A stretch of DNA of 64,000 bases. It comes from Fodinicola acaciae (GTDB taxonomy: Bacteria > Actinomycetota > Actinomycetes > Mycobacteriales > HKI-0501). A model generated the notes under the pieces. It saw nothing but the letters and a program-made list of their open reading frames with translations. It was not told the DNA's origin and did not search any database. Of the stretch, positions 21,634 to 25,545 are shown one piece after another; position 1 is the stretch's first letter, and every line of letters starts with the position of its first letter. The position numbers and the translations under genes were made by a program. The DNA lies in NCBI RefSeq assembly GCF_010993745.1, contig NZ_WOTN01000002.1:1612001-1676000 (forward strand). Reading direction: 5' to 3'.

Positions 21634-22800
21634 CTAGCGGCGCGGCGGCTGGGGGTTGCGGCTCGGCTGTGGGGTGGGGGCTGGAGAGCCGCCGGCGGGT
21701 TGTCGAGTGGGGGCCGGGGTGCGGCGGCGAGCGGTGGGGAAGGGCTCGGGTTGTTGCGCGTGGTGCGGTCCCCATGGCGGGCGAGGCACGGTGGTGGCCG
21801 GTCCAGGGGCTTCCGGCGCCGGCGGATGCGGCGTGGCCCGGGCCGCCGGCCGCACCGGTGCCGGCGCCGGTTCGCCGCGGCGGCGGGGCTGCGCCGCCGT
21901 ACGCGCCGCCTGCTCGTCGATGCTCTCAGCGTGCGCGTTGAGCACCTGATGATGGCTGTTGACGTGCGCGAACACGTAGTTGGCCGCGTCGGCGTTCTGG
22001 TTGGTCACCTGTACGTGGGTGTCGTGCCGTTCGTTCAGATCGTTCAGGCCGCGGGTCAGGTCGTTGGCCGCGACCTGGGTGTCCTCGATGCGCTCGGACA
22101 GATCGGAATCGACCCGCCCGATCTCGGCTTGCAGATGTCCATCGGCTGATTGCCTGGCGTACGTCTCAGTGGCGATCTGACTCGCCAACTCGGTTTTGGC
22201 TTGCTGTAGCTCGGATCTGAGCTGGTTGACTTCCTGCCGTAACGGTGTGGTTGCCTGCGCGACCGCATCGTTGATCATGCGTTGTACGTCGGCAGGGGTG
22301 AGCTGTTTGTCTCGCAGCTCGGTGATGGCGTCGGCGACATCGGCCATGTCCGTGGCGCGCTGCCGACCTTCTTGGCGCAGTTGGGTCTGGAGGTCGCGAT
22401 CGCGCACCTGACCTTCGTGCGCTACGCGGTCCAACTCGACCATCGGCTCGGCTTCCGGATCCTGCCCGCGCTCCCGCTGCGCCTGGAACTCCTTGGACTC
22501 CTTCTTGCCGCCACGCAAGTTGAAATAAGTCTGGGCTACCAGCTGCAGGCCGGCGCCGCCGACGAGTTTCAACGCAGCCTCGGTCATCGAGCCGGAAAAT
22601 GCGGCCCAGCCGGAACTGAACCAGAGACTAAGAGTGGTCGCGGTGGTGAACACCATTTGTGCCGGCATCGACTTCGCGGCTGACGAGAAGCTCTCCCTGA
22701 ACTTCTTGATGACGTTCTTCTTGGCAGCAGGGTCCGCCACGCCTGCTCTATCCAGCAGGTCGTCCGGCCAGTTTCCGAGACCGCTTCTGGAAAAGCTCAT
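21634..22800 (-). CDS. Coiled-coil protein with Pro-rich tail, function unknown
   Basis: 388 residues. About 48-90 is a moderately hydrophobic stretch (MVFTTATTLSLWFSSGWAAFSG ... LVGGAGLQLVAQTYF) that may associate with the membrane. From 110 to 290 come long heptad-rich helices (VADAITELRDKQLTPADVQ; LRQEVNQLRSELQQAKTELASQ; LSERIEDTQVAANDLTRGLNDLNERHD). The last 90 residues are Pro/Ala/Arg-rich and low-complexity. I recognise no family. Its ATG overlaps the stop of the preceding small gene, so the two probably form one functional pair. Confidence 0.75.
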   Translation of the reverse strand: MSFSRSGLGNWPDDLLDRAGVADPAAKKNVIKKFRESFSSAAKSMPAQMVFTTATTLSLWFSSGWAAFSGSMTEAALKLVGGAGLQLVAQTYFNLRGGKKESKEFQAQRERGQDPEAEPMVELDRVAHEGQVRDRDLQTQLRQEGRQRATDMADVADAITELRDKQLTPADVQRMINDAVAQATTPLRQEVNQLRSELQQAKTELASQIATETYARQSADGHLQAEIGRVDSDLSERIEDTQVAANDLTRGLNDLNERHDTHVQVTNQNADAANYVFAHVNSHHQVLNAHAESIDEQAARTAAQPRRRGEPAPAPVRPAARATPHPPAPEAPGPATTVPRPPWGPHHAQQPEPFPTARRRTPAPTRQPAGGSPAPTPQPSRNPQPPRR

Positions 22801-23369
22801 GACATTTGCAGGAATCCGCAGCGATTCGCCACGATGAGTGGCAGAGCTTGAGCAACGGGCACTGCGACTTCGTCTGGAGCTACGCCGATTTCATCGGCGT
22901 ACGCGACCACTGCATCCCAGAGCGAGTCGTGGTATGCGGCGATGCACCACGTCGCGTAGACGGGTTGGTTGGCGCGGATCATCACGCGCCCTTCGCGCGC
23001 GATCTGATAGATGCCGCGCTCGTTCTCAATTGCGCCAAAGCCATCGGCGAGTGGAAAAAGCCGGTGTCCCTGGAGAAACTCAGTGGGCTTATCGGTGTCT
23101 AGCTCCGTCAGCAGGTGATCGTCGATGAGAGCCTTCGCGTGTTCGCTGGCGGACGGGATGCCTAGCTTCGTCGCTGCGTCGATCAATCGGTCGAGACTAA
23201 GGCTGAGCGAGGCTGCCGACTCGAGATCGGCGAATGCCACCGTCCAGACCTTCCAAACGTCTGGCGGTAGCTTGGCGTAGCCGCCCGGGAGGATTACCTC
23301 GTGGTGCTGGACGCCGGCCTGGTAGCGGGGGCCGGACTCGAAACCGATCGGGACAACGACGACAGGCAT
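22797..23369 (-). CDS. Unknown protein coupled to the coiled-coil gene
   Basis: 190 residues from the ATG at 23369 (MPVVVVPIGFESGPRYQAGVQHHEVILPGGYAKLPPDVWKVW). The open frame continues upstream to 23492, but that part is Arg-rich and implausible. The middle alternates short helices and strands like a winged-helix domain (ESAASLSLSLDRLIDAATKLGIPSASEHAKALIDDHLLTEL). That is a shape impression, not a match. The stop overlaps the start of the coiled-coil gene by 4 bases. Two Cys and several Trp/His are present, but no catalytic motif. Confidence 0.7.
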   Translation of the reverse strand: MPVVVVPIGFESGPRYQAGVQHHEVILPGGYAKLPPDVWKVWTVAFADLESAASLSLSLDRLIDAATKLGIPSASEHAKALIDDHLLTELDTDKPTEFLQGHRLFPLADGFGAIENERGIYQIAREGRVMIRANQPVYATWCIAAYHDSLWDAVVAYADEIGVAPDEVAVPVAQALPLIVANRCGFLQMS

Positions 23370-23455: not shown

Positions 23456-23635
23456 CTACCGGCCGCGGAGCTGACCGACGAACGACGACCACGCCGTTGC
23501 GGAGAAGGACAGCGCCGCGCCATTCCGGTTCTTGCTGTCACGAACTCCGACGACCGATCCCGCTGTGCCGACCTCAACACACTCGGCCTGGCTGCCGCTG
23601 CGTGTGCTCTTGCGCCAGTTGCCGATCACCGTCAT
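23456..23635 (-). CDS. DUF397 small protein
   Basis: A 59-residue protein starting MTVIGNWRKSTRSGSQAECVEV and running through VGVRDSKNRNGAALSF to AWSSFVGQLRGR. WRKS, the Cys-Val-Glu-Val stretch, VRDSK and F-x-x-AW-x-x-F are the family hallmarks. DUF397 proteins are found in actinomycetes next to Scr1-like XRE regulators and are thought to act as small partners, in some cases like a toxin or an anti-regulator. The ATG overlaps the stop of the XRE gene (ATGA). Confidence 0.93.
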   Translation of the reverse strand: MTVIGNWRKSTRSGSQAECVEVGTAGSVVGVRDSKNRNGAALSFSATAWSSFVGQLRGR

Positions 23636-24519
23636 GTACCGACTCCCCTGATGAGATCGATGGTCTCCTGCTGGCTCAAGGATGCCTGATGCACGCGGTT
23701 GAATAGAACCTCGTAGCGCGTAATTTTTTCGCTTGCGGTGACGTGGAGCTCCTTGGTTTCGGTCTCGACCACCGCGACCTCAGGTGAGTTTCCGATGTCA
23801 AAAAGGTAGAAGGAGTTCAGCGGCGGAGCTGCATGCTTGACATCTGCGTTGAACGGCAGCACCCGCAGGTCGACGTTTGGAAGGCCGGCAACCTCGATGA
23901 GGTGCCGGAGTTGACCGGCCTGCACCTCGACCGGTGCTGTCCGGCGGCGGATGACGCTTTCGTCAAGCACAACGGCGTACGTCGTAGGGTCGCCCTCGCG
24001 GCTCAGGATCTTTTGCCGCTCTTGGCGGTTGACGATTGCTGAGCCGTCGTCTATTGGGAGCACTGCCTCGGTGTCGCGGAACCTGACTGCCATGTAGTCA
24101 GCAGTTTGGAGTAGGCCCGGGACGAACATCAGCGAGAAGACCCGCAGCCGCCTGGCGTCTGACTCCAGTTCGGCGAAGGCGGCTTGACGCTCGGGCATGC
24201 CGCTGGTTTTCCACCAGGCGCGGTCGTTGGCGTCGCGGGCCTGCTTGATGAAGACGTTGGCCTGCTGGGGCGGCACTTCCAGCGCGTCCATGATGTTCAT
24301 GACGAGCGCTACGTCAGGCGTGACCTCGCCGGTCTCCAGGCGCGAGATGCGCGTACCAGAGCAGCCGCACCGCTTGCCGAGCTCGATCTGCGACAACCCG
24401 GCGGCGACCCGGAGCATGCGCAGTTCGTCGCCGAACCTCAAACGGCCGAGTCGCAACGCATCACCTGAGTCCGCAAATTTGCGGTACCGCTTGCGATTCG
24501 ACCCTGCTTCGTTGCTCAT
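23632..24519 (-). CDS. Scr1-family XRE regulator (helix-turn-helix plus DUF5753)
   Basis: 295 residues. The helix-turn-helix is at about 29-85 (LRFGDELRMLRVAAGLSQIELGKRCGCSGTRISRLETGEVTPD). The DUF5753 domain follows (FSLMFVPGLLQTADYMAVRFR ... RQERQKILSREGDPTTYAVVLDESVIRRR ... LPNVDLRVLPFNADVKHA). It forms the typical operon with the DUF397 gene. The extra 30 N-terminal residues (NEAGSNRKRYRKFADSGDALRLG) may be a late start or a genuine extension. A perfect palindrome lies inside its first codons (24471-24484). Confidence 0.93.
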   Translation of the reverse strand: MSNEAGSNRKRYRKFADSGDALRLGRLRFGDELRMLRVAAGLSQIELGKRCGCSGTRISRLETGEVTPDVALVMNIMDALEVPPQQANVFIKQARDANDRAWWKTSGMPERQAAFAELESDARRLRVFSLMFVPGLLQTADYMAVRFRDTEAVLPIDDGSAIVNRQERQKILSREGDPTTYAVVLDESVIRRRTAPVEVQAGQLRHLIEVAGLPNVDLRVLPFNADVKHAAPPLNSFYLFDIGNSPEVAVVETETKELHVTASEKITRYEVLFNRVHQASLSQQETIDLIRGVGT

Positions 24520-24638
24520 CGCCTTCCCCGCTTATCTTCTGGTCCTGAAATTCGGTGGATACCGCCGCCAACATGGCAGAGATTCGCGGATTTCACAAAT
24601 ATGCGCCATACGGTTGAATCGACAGCGAAAATTTGCGC
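24471..24638. promoter_or_regulatory. Two related palindromes flanking a divergent junction
   Basis: CCGCAAATTTGCGG (24471-24484, perfect palindrome, within the first codons of the XRE gene) and GCGAAAATTTGCGC (24625-24638, just before the plus-strand ATP-grasp-like gene) share CG-n-AAATTTGCG. The junction is AT-rich for this genome. They could be operators for the XRE regulator; untested. Confidence 0.4.
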
Positions 24639-24661
24639 TTGCATCAGCGGAAGGAAGCGTT

Positions 24662-25420
24662 ATGAGCCTGGTTCTCGTCGTTGCAAAAGAGCCTTCCCGC
24701 GCGGCCATATGTGCCGAGTTGGCGGCTCGCGGTGTCGCGCATGCATTGCTGGAGATGTCGCGCCGACCGCTGGTGGAAGCGTGGCTCGACCGCAAGCCGA
24801 ATGGCGACGTCTCGGTCCGATGGGCCGGCTTTCTTCATACGGCCGGTGGCCGCATCGCTCTGGAGGATGTCACCGGCATCTACTGGGACGTTCCTTCGCG
24901 GATTGTCGACGACCCGATCGCGGGTGTGCTCGGTACGCTCGACTGCCAATGGGTCAACAATCCGGCGGCCGTCGCCGCGGACACGTGGCCGCGCCGTCAG
25001 GAACGGGGTGCCAGGCTCTTCCCGTCGGACCGGTTCCTGATAACTGACGACAAAGCCGCAGTGCGGCGGCTGAAGTGTCGCCCACGCAGCCGCCGCTACT
25101 TCTACACCGCGCCGCGGCTCTCCGAACGGGTGATTCACTTTTTCGTCGTCGGCAAGCGAGTCTTCTTGGTTGCGGTGTTCGAGGGCAGGGAGACGGTGTC
25201 CAAGGTGTCTGACAAGCTCGGTTTCACGCTGTCGGCATACGTGGCATTGGGCGGCCTCACCTACTCCGCGGTGACGTTCGGAATGGCCGACAATGGACGG
25301 TGGATCTATCTGGGATCCGACCCGACCGCCGACTGGACGTCGTACGCCGAGCGCCTCAACCTGCCGATCGCGGAGGCCATCGCCGACGAGCTGACACGTC
25401 CACAGAGTGGGACGAGTTGA
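24662..25420 (+). CDS. Degenerate ATP-grasp peptide-maturase-like protein
   Basis: 252 residues from the ATG at 24662 (GGAAGG upstream). The N-terminal third matches the pre-ATP-grasp domain of graspetide synthetases (LVLVVAKEPSRAAICAELAARGVAHALLEM ... FLHTAGGRIALEDVTGIYWDVPSR ... CQWVNNPAAVAADTWPRRQ). The ATP-grasp part is short. The usual nucleotide-binding Lys region is replaced by RRLKCRPRSRRYFYTAP. The expected E-x-NPNGQW metal-binding motif appears as LGSDPTADW, though the following LPIAEAIADEL tail is kept. Typical members have about 300-330 residues. No precursor gene is seen in the 142 bases upstream. A non-catalytic relative, or one with altered chemistry, seems likely. Confidence 0.75.
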   Translation: MSLVLVVAKEPSRAAICAELAARGVAHALLEMSRRPLVEAWLDRKPNGDVSVRWAGFLHTAGGRIALEDVTGIYWDVPSRIVDDPIAGVLGTLDCQWVNNPAAVAADTWPRRQERGARLFPSDRFLITDDKAAVRRLKCRPRSRRYFYTAPRLSERVIHFFVVGKRVFLVAVFEGRETVSKVSDKLGFTLSAYVALGGLTYSAVTFGMADNGRWIYLGSDPTADWTSYAERLNLPIAEAIADELTRPQSGTS

Positions 25421-25453
25421 CTCATGCGATGGGATAGTGCCAAGCTAGGCGGC

Positions 25454-25483
25454 GTGCAGGTGCAGATTCTCGTACTCCGCTAG
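25454..25483 (+). CDS. ilvB leader peptide (branched-chain attenuation)
   Basis: A nine-codon ORF, GTG start, reading M-Q-V-Q-I-L-V-L-R then TAG. Five of nine residues are Val, Ile or Leu, the amino acids whose synthesis the operon controls. It is immediately followed by a stem-loop and then a terminator before ilvB. Ribosome stalling at the Ile-Leu-Val-Leu codons when these charged tRNAs are scarce would favour read-through. Confidence 0.8.
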   Translation: MQVQILVLR

Positions 25484-25545
25484 CGCGTCGCCAGCTTCTC
25501 CAGGCGTCGCGCTCACCCCGGTTGCTTCGGCAAACGGGGTTTTTT
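25482..25545 (+). promoter_or_regulatory. Attenuator: pause stem and rho-independent terminator
   Basis: Pause/protector stem: AGCGCGTCGCC (25482-25492) and GGCGTCGCGCT (25503-25513), one mismatch. Terminator: CCCCGGTTGC (25516-25525), loop TTCG, GCAAACGGGG (25530-25539), then six T (25540-25545). The leader stop codon overlaps the base of the first stem, as expected for attenuation control. The terminator has one G-A mismatch. Confidence 0.85.

Follow-up and report, generated by a model that had tools for sequence, protein, structure and literature searches.

A stretch of 64,000 nucleotides of the genome of the soil actinobacterium Fodinicola acaciae (contig NZ_WOTN01000002.1, positions 1,612,001 to 1,676,000; referred to here as the window) contains a gene that was originally predicted, from the sequence alone, to encode an orphan ATP-grasp maturase-like protein without catalytic motifs. 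The gene lies divergently to a regulator gene of the XRE family, and the features of the locus and of related copies are listed in Table 1. The open reading frame (ORF) starts with ATG, is continuous and has a normal codon-position composition, and is preceded by its own ribosome-binding site, as had been proposed. The product matched the NCBIfam model TIGR04187 (GRASP_SAV_5884) with an E-value of 8.6e-15 and 54.7 bits against a cut-off of 350; the intact sister sequence (L031) also scored slightly under this cut-off (345.2 bits). A Pfam scan of the protein gave no match, and a sequence search of the PDB returned only AMdnB, MdnB and PruB as sensible matches, via the C-terminal part.

Table 1. 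Features of the pseudo-ATP-grasp locus (window coordinates) and related dead copies (coordinates of their own loci or contig).
Feature	Position	Strand	Basis or remark
Pseudo-ATP-grasp protein, graspetide-synthetase fold, catalytically dead (252 aa)	24662..25420	+	Profile, model, column-wise residue check
Ribosome-binding site, GGAAGGAAG	24649..24657	+	Sequence
Candidate shared operator/promoter, 36-bp block identical in F. feengrottensis	24566..24601		Cross-species comparison
XRE regulator (HTH_31 + DUF5753), WhiJ/Scr1-like	23632..24519	-	HTH_31 2.6e-15, DUF5753 3.4e-44
DUF397 (BldB-like) small protein, 59 aa	23456..23635	-	DUF397 2.7e-19
Fourth cassette gene, ~190-aa protein, uncharacterised 'VPxGFxxGPRY' family	22797..23369	-	Homologues in all dead-grasp loci
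Fifth cassette gene, 388 aa; hydrophobic N-terminal part, coiled-coil-like middle, Pro-rich tail	21634..22800	-	
19-aa ORF, MRWDSAKLGGVQVQILVLR	25424..25483	+	
Terminator-like hairpin with T run	25524..25540	+	
Second orthologous dead pair	L027 9705-10628; L030 1100-2011		Different state of decay, dN/dS 0.31
Third copy in the window genome	L028 9656-10577; C2:753661-754171		Broken across frames

An AlphaFold2 model made with 22 homologues was confident over nearly the whole chain (predicted local distance difference test 90.4, predicted template modelling score 0.87). Comparison with Foldseek and VIA-align gave MdnB, PruB, AMdnB, MdnC and CdnC as the top matches (Z 20.8-23.0), covering the whole chain, with Z 23.0 over 230 residues to MdnB (5ig8), Z 22.7 to PruB (9bou) and a range of 22.6-23.0 for MdnB, AMdnB and PruB together. 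The profile match and the whole-chain matches to solved synthetases place the kinship to graspetide synthetases far above chance, and the ORF is a real gene related to this family. The predicted model retains the pre-ATP-grasp plus ATP-grasp fold, minus the central lid subdomain. Against a model of the intact Fodinicola feengrottensis paralogue, the pre-ATP-grasp domain and the C-terminal half were retained, while a stretch of four strands and two helices that includes the ATP-binding Lys (169-210 of the intact protein) was missing between helix 131-136 and strand 147-149 of the window protein, as was the helix of the DWR loop (intact 244-248). Across ATP-grasp enzymes it is the equivalent of this central segment that closes over the ATP; with the lid subdomain absent the model has no nucleotide clamp, in agreement with the pseudo-enzyme of the original prediction. 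The protein is 60 residues short of the 312-position TIGR04187 model and 85 short of the intact Fodinicola paralogue (337 aa), against an anticipated shortfall of 60-80. The pre-ATP-grasp half, which had been singled out as recognisable, was found by the fold search, but by profile score the C-terminal half is the more recognisable one: the ATP-grasp half is present at residues 156-246, and residues 178-245 scored best.

Mutants K165A and D280A of the graspetide synthetase AMdnC are inactive (PMC5934393). Catalytic positions were compared column by column with 18 sequences having intact motifs, with four dead proteins in the alignment. The ATP-binding Lys, the Q of HLFQ, the R of EVR, the R of DWR and the D of the Mg site were present in all 18; the second Mg-site position was acidic (E/D) in 18 of 18 and the N of this site was found in 17. 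In the window protein the Lys was deleted, the Q was replaced by T and the R of EVR by H, the three Mg-site residues read T, G and D, and the DWR loop was deleted, as it was in all four aligned dead copies. The proposed replacement of the Lys region and of the Glu/Asn metal ligands was therefore confirmed. The second dead pair (L027, L030) kept the Q and the first Mg-site D and had lost the Lys, the E (now Q or R), the N (now D) and the DWR loop, so that catalytic residues were lost in every dead copy, to a varying extent. Roles of the other positions checked were assigned from general knowledge of ATP-grasp enzymes and graspetide synthetases.

In all four aligned dead proteins ExN was changed to xxD and the W of the next segment was conserved, a pattern which is not random and which might be expected of an enzyme whose chemistry had changed to rely on residues outside the canonical set of ATP and Mg ligands. 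However, the Glu position differs among the dead copies (G, Q, R), leaving no common new site, and the whole lid that would clamp ATP is absent from the model. A different chemistry, which had been suggested as one option, found no support and appears very improbable.

The orthologue in F. feengrottensis (P0002) occupies the same place, beside the XRE pair and upstream of ilvB; it is 55% identical to the window protein and all indels are in-frame. It shares every loss of the window copy except that of the Lys, which is retained (K-S-L), and it still has a further segment of 23 codons which the window copy has lost at the Lys region. The direct orthologue is therefore not an intact version of the gene, the ATP Lys excepted. 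As the metal-site and DWR-loop losses are common to both, divergence of the orthologues post-dates the loss of catalysis. The ratio of non-synonymous to synonymous substitution (dN/dS, NG86) of the window pair was 0.33 (95% confidence interval 0.23-0.46), to be read with a dS near 1; by comparison, the second dead pair gave 0.31, a portion of the XRE gene 0.23 and a portion of ilvB 0.09. The F. feengrottensis assembly is a draft of 74% completeness with apparent frameshifts in ilvB and the XRE gene; the pseudo-ATP-grasp gene has none. Judged by these sequence comparisons, the window gene is under purifying selection and is not a freshly broken copy. In this draft, the frameshifts of ilvB and of the XRE gene, like that of one synthetase copy (L029, L032), suggest indel errors of assembly and should not be taken for pseudogenes.

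The length deficit is central, as paired frameshifts could produce, and a normal synthetase misread through an error of sequencing or gene calling would look similar. Such an artefact is refuted by the orthologue, which comes from an independent assembly with the same metal-site changes and without the DWR loop, as well as by the continuous frame and normal codon-position composition, and we give it practically no credence.

Three copies were found in the window genome, all of them dead, and no intact TIGR04187 gene was found there. The second copy (on contig C3) encodes 308-344 residues depending on the choice of start; the third is frame-broken and shows the same change of ExN to GxD, and the XRE-DUF397 pair and fourth gene next to it appear intact. 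The dead proteins formed one clade (100/99 support) whose sister, at 91/95, was the intact Fodinicola synthetase; long branches could exaggerate this grouping. The nearest intact relative is the synthetase of F. feengrottensis. No other match to the window protein at E ≤ 1e-10 was obtained in 395 genomes of the class, a scan of ~85,000 species with two narrow peptide patterns returned only F. feengrottensis, a plasmid search gave no match, and in 396 genomes of the phylum every relative detected with a profile built on the dead family had intact motifs. The dead family looks confined to Fodinicola, two genomes of which were compared.

A scan for leader motifs detected no graspetide precursor within ~6 kb of the window gene, while the same scan found the precursor in two control loci; the claim that no precursor gene stands beside it was upheld. 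In the window genome TIGR04186 (precursor) gave only sub-cut-off noise, and no precursor was found near any dead copy. With a precursor gone from all of these loci, the gene might be the decaying leftover of a former graspetide cluster, its maturase eroding while the frame stays open by accident or because selection was lifted only recently, and the paralogue already frame-broken with the same motif losses, the fast evolution and the 23-codon segment lost in the window copy but kept in the orthologue would all fit such a history. Most of the losses are nevertheless older than the species split, and were followed by a dS of ~1 at dN/dS 0.33 (0.31 in the second pair) with no frameshift; confidence in the model extends over almost the entire chain, and the gene is unbroken in a draft whose core genes show apparent assembly frameshifts. 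Decay is considered unlikely on this balance.

The gene had been called an orphan, but it belongs to a conserved five-gene cassette with the XRE-DUF397 pair and two more genes; the divergent regulator was correctly foreseen. The DUF397 gene lies directly downstream of the XRE gene, its ATG overlapping the XRE stop codon (23632-23635), and the fifth gene overlaps the fourth by 4 bases. At 5/5 dead loci the XRE/DUF5753 and DUF397 genes were divergent to the dead ATP-grasp gene and the fourth gene (~190-200 aa) was next in line. The fifth gene (~370-390 aa) was recognised at four of the five loci by a profile built from the window and L027 copies, among them L027, L029 and L030 on a crude gene map, and an unlabelled ORF of 369 residues held the same position at L028. 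The XRE pair was absent at the intact Fodinicola paralogues; two intact Streptomyces-like loci had a DUF5753 regulator nearby and the precursor just upstream of the synthetase. There are ~30 DUF5753 places in the window genome, and no hidden dead ATP-grasp was found beside other DUF5753 genes in the 30 loci inspected. The XRE proteins beside dead copies were not monophyletic and fell in three places in the XRE tree, and a simple block duplication of the cassette was not supported by this scattering.

The divergent region between the two transcription units measures 142 bp (24520-24661) and includes the 36-bp block, while its surroundings are ~60% identical between the species. A 22-bp part of the block occurs exactly once in the genome. 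Of the tidy divergent promoter that had been proposed, this conserved block is the only candidate, since a scan for sigma-70-type promoters gave no match.

The window protein shares fold, domain order and overall similarity with the actinobacterial graspetide synthetases (TIGR04187; PruB, 9bou) and with the microviridin cyclases MdnB, MdnC and AMdnB, but differs from the active enzymes in having no ATP Lys, Mg ligands, DWR Arg, central lid or precursor gene. In its setting it resembles the Streptomyces loci WhiJ-BldB-AbaA and iosA-whiJ9-bldB9 (with pairs such as Scr1/Scr2), which likewise consist of an XRE/DUF5753 gene, then a DUF397 gene, with a third gene alongside. The dead ATP-grasp, divergent at 5/5 loci, occupies the abaA/iosA slot; the third gene in Streptomyces encodes AbaA (HATPase_c) or IosA (15 kDa, no known fold), whereas in Fodinicola it encodes the dead ATP-grasp and the cassette has two additional genes. 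For iosA the shared intergenic region is the XRE binding site: WhiJ9 of S. venezuelae attaches there to direct repeats lying between its own gene and iosA, which it activates, and abaA paralogues occupy the same slot as iosA (PMC10294661); the likeness seen here is one of gene arrangement. In S. coelicolor, fourteen XRE-DUF397 pairs acted as regulators and not as toxin-antitoxin pairs (PMC10364602). Some graspetide clusters of actinobacteria come with DUF5753/DUF397 genes (PMC13097080, PMC8939145), and graspetide groups 11 and 13 may co-occur with them (PMC13097080).

We favour the reading, at a probability of roughly 0.55, that the window protein is a binding-only pseudoenzyme of a WhiJ/BldB-like unit, controlled by its XRE neighbour and inactivated ancestrally. 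Homology, predicted fold, site loss, selection, single tree origin and cassette conservation are directly supported, and from these we infer XRE control, an effector role and a binding partner. A graspetide synthetase in the Fodinicola ancestor would have lost catalysis once and then been duplicated into several loci and retained. By analogy with the Streptomyces WhiJ/BldB loci, each dead copy would be the effector gene of its XRE(DUF5753)-DUF397 unit; the XRE protein would bind the shared intergenic region and govern how the dead ATP-grasp gene is transcribed, and would itself be modulated by the DUF397 protein. Lacking an ATP clamp, a metal site and the substrate Arg loop, the dead ATP-grasp protein would have to work by binding to some other macromolecule, the most plausible candidates being the products of its own cassette. 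It is unlikely to bind a graspetide precursor in the ancestral manner, because the parental substrate sites, including the DWR loop and the central region, are largely gone; the substrate-binding role of the original prediction is therefore disfavoured in its parental sense. The pseudo-enzyme itself is supported by the motif losses shared with the orthologue, by purifying selection and by the lid-less model, and by analogy a regulatory role for it seems likeliest. More tentatively, an enzyme of peptide maturation may have become a non-catalytic signalling component, its dead fold serving as a peptide- or protein-sensing effector of a WhiJ/BldB-type switch, diversified by duplication within one genus.

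Several points weigh against this binding-only reading. One of the three copies in the window genome is frame-broken, so that at this locus, at least, the module can be dispensed with. Change has been quicker in the pseudo-ATP-grasp gene than in the neighbouring XRE gene (55% identity, compared with 75% over the aligned XRE part), and dS is ~1. The scattered XRE tree suggests that the association with dead copies need not work alike at each locus. The binding partner is only putative, cassette proteins being the likeliest candidates, and Streptomyces XRE/DUF397 pairs usually act on antibiotic production and development, so that the main target of the regulator may lie elsewhere.

The protein might instead be a scaffold or partner subunit, acting in trans for another enzyme of ribosomally synthesized and post-translationally modified peptides (RiPPs), such as the lanthipeptide-type dehydratases near fourth-gene paralogues in the window genome. 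Graspetide synthetases that depend on a partner exist (PMC13097080), as do truncated, inactive ATP-grasps in some clusters (PMC8939145). The latter, which belong to graspetide branch 8 and are the precedent encountered for inactive ATP-grasps, are also catalytically inactive relatives of synthetases but are truncated C-terminally (PMC8939145), whereas the window protein keeps its C-terminal half, has lost the middle and has no active synthetase in its genome. MirB/MirC offers a likeness in its non-catalytic partner in a graspetide pathway; MirC differs from the window protein in being a SurA/PPIase-like chaperone instead of an ATP-grasp and in cooperating with a synthetase that is active (PMC13097080). 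With no intact graspetide synthetase left as a partner, a cassette without a RiPP enzyme and no dead ATP-grasp seen co-localised with the dehydratases, a partner subunit is decidedly improbable.

Descriptions of dead ATP-grasp proteins are rare in graspetide biology, and what XRE-DUF397 pairs and their adjacent gene do biochemically has long been a puzzle in actinobacterial development. This locus provides a third component whose fold is known, along with a known intact relative within the genus, two pairs of orthologues and a naturally broken copy, and what such effectors bind thereby becomes directly testable.

The fourth gene product gave no match in Pfam, NCBIfam or the PDB, and a PADLOC scan for anti-phage defence gave no match for either it or the pseudo-enzyme, the regulator being hit by generic HTH models only. 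A helix pattern had suggested a PqqD-like RiPP recognition element, which was dropped after hhalign against one genomic PqqD gave a probability of 0.3%, a weak test with a single sequence on one side. The family has ~15 matches in the window genome and is present in related families. Two loci of the window genome carry paralogues beside lanthipeptide/thiopeptide-type dehydratase genes (L165 5261-9902; L166 3242-10813), at L166 with an XRE-DUF397 pair upstream as well, and the fourth-gene family may be RiPP-associated. Homologues in other families of the order (L152, L154-L157) form tandem arrays or longer ORFs and adjoin very large proteins, of which one has a dynamin-like GTPase domain and several have no Pfam match.

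Directly 3' of the pseudo-ATP-grasp gene is an ORF of 19 residues ending in Val/Ile/Leu codons, followed by the terminator-like hairpin before ilvB. Rfam gave no family match for this candidate, only one below threshold; from their sequence, the short ORF and hairpin look like a leader peptide and attenuator of the branched-chain amino acid type.
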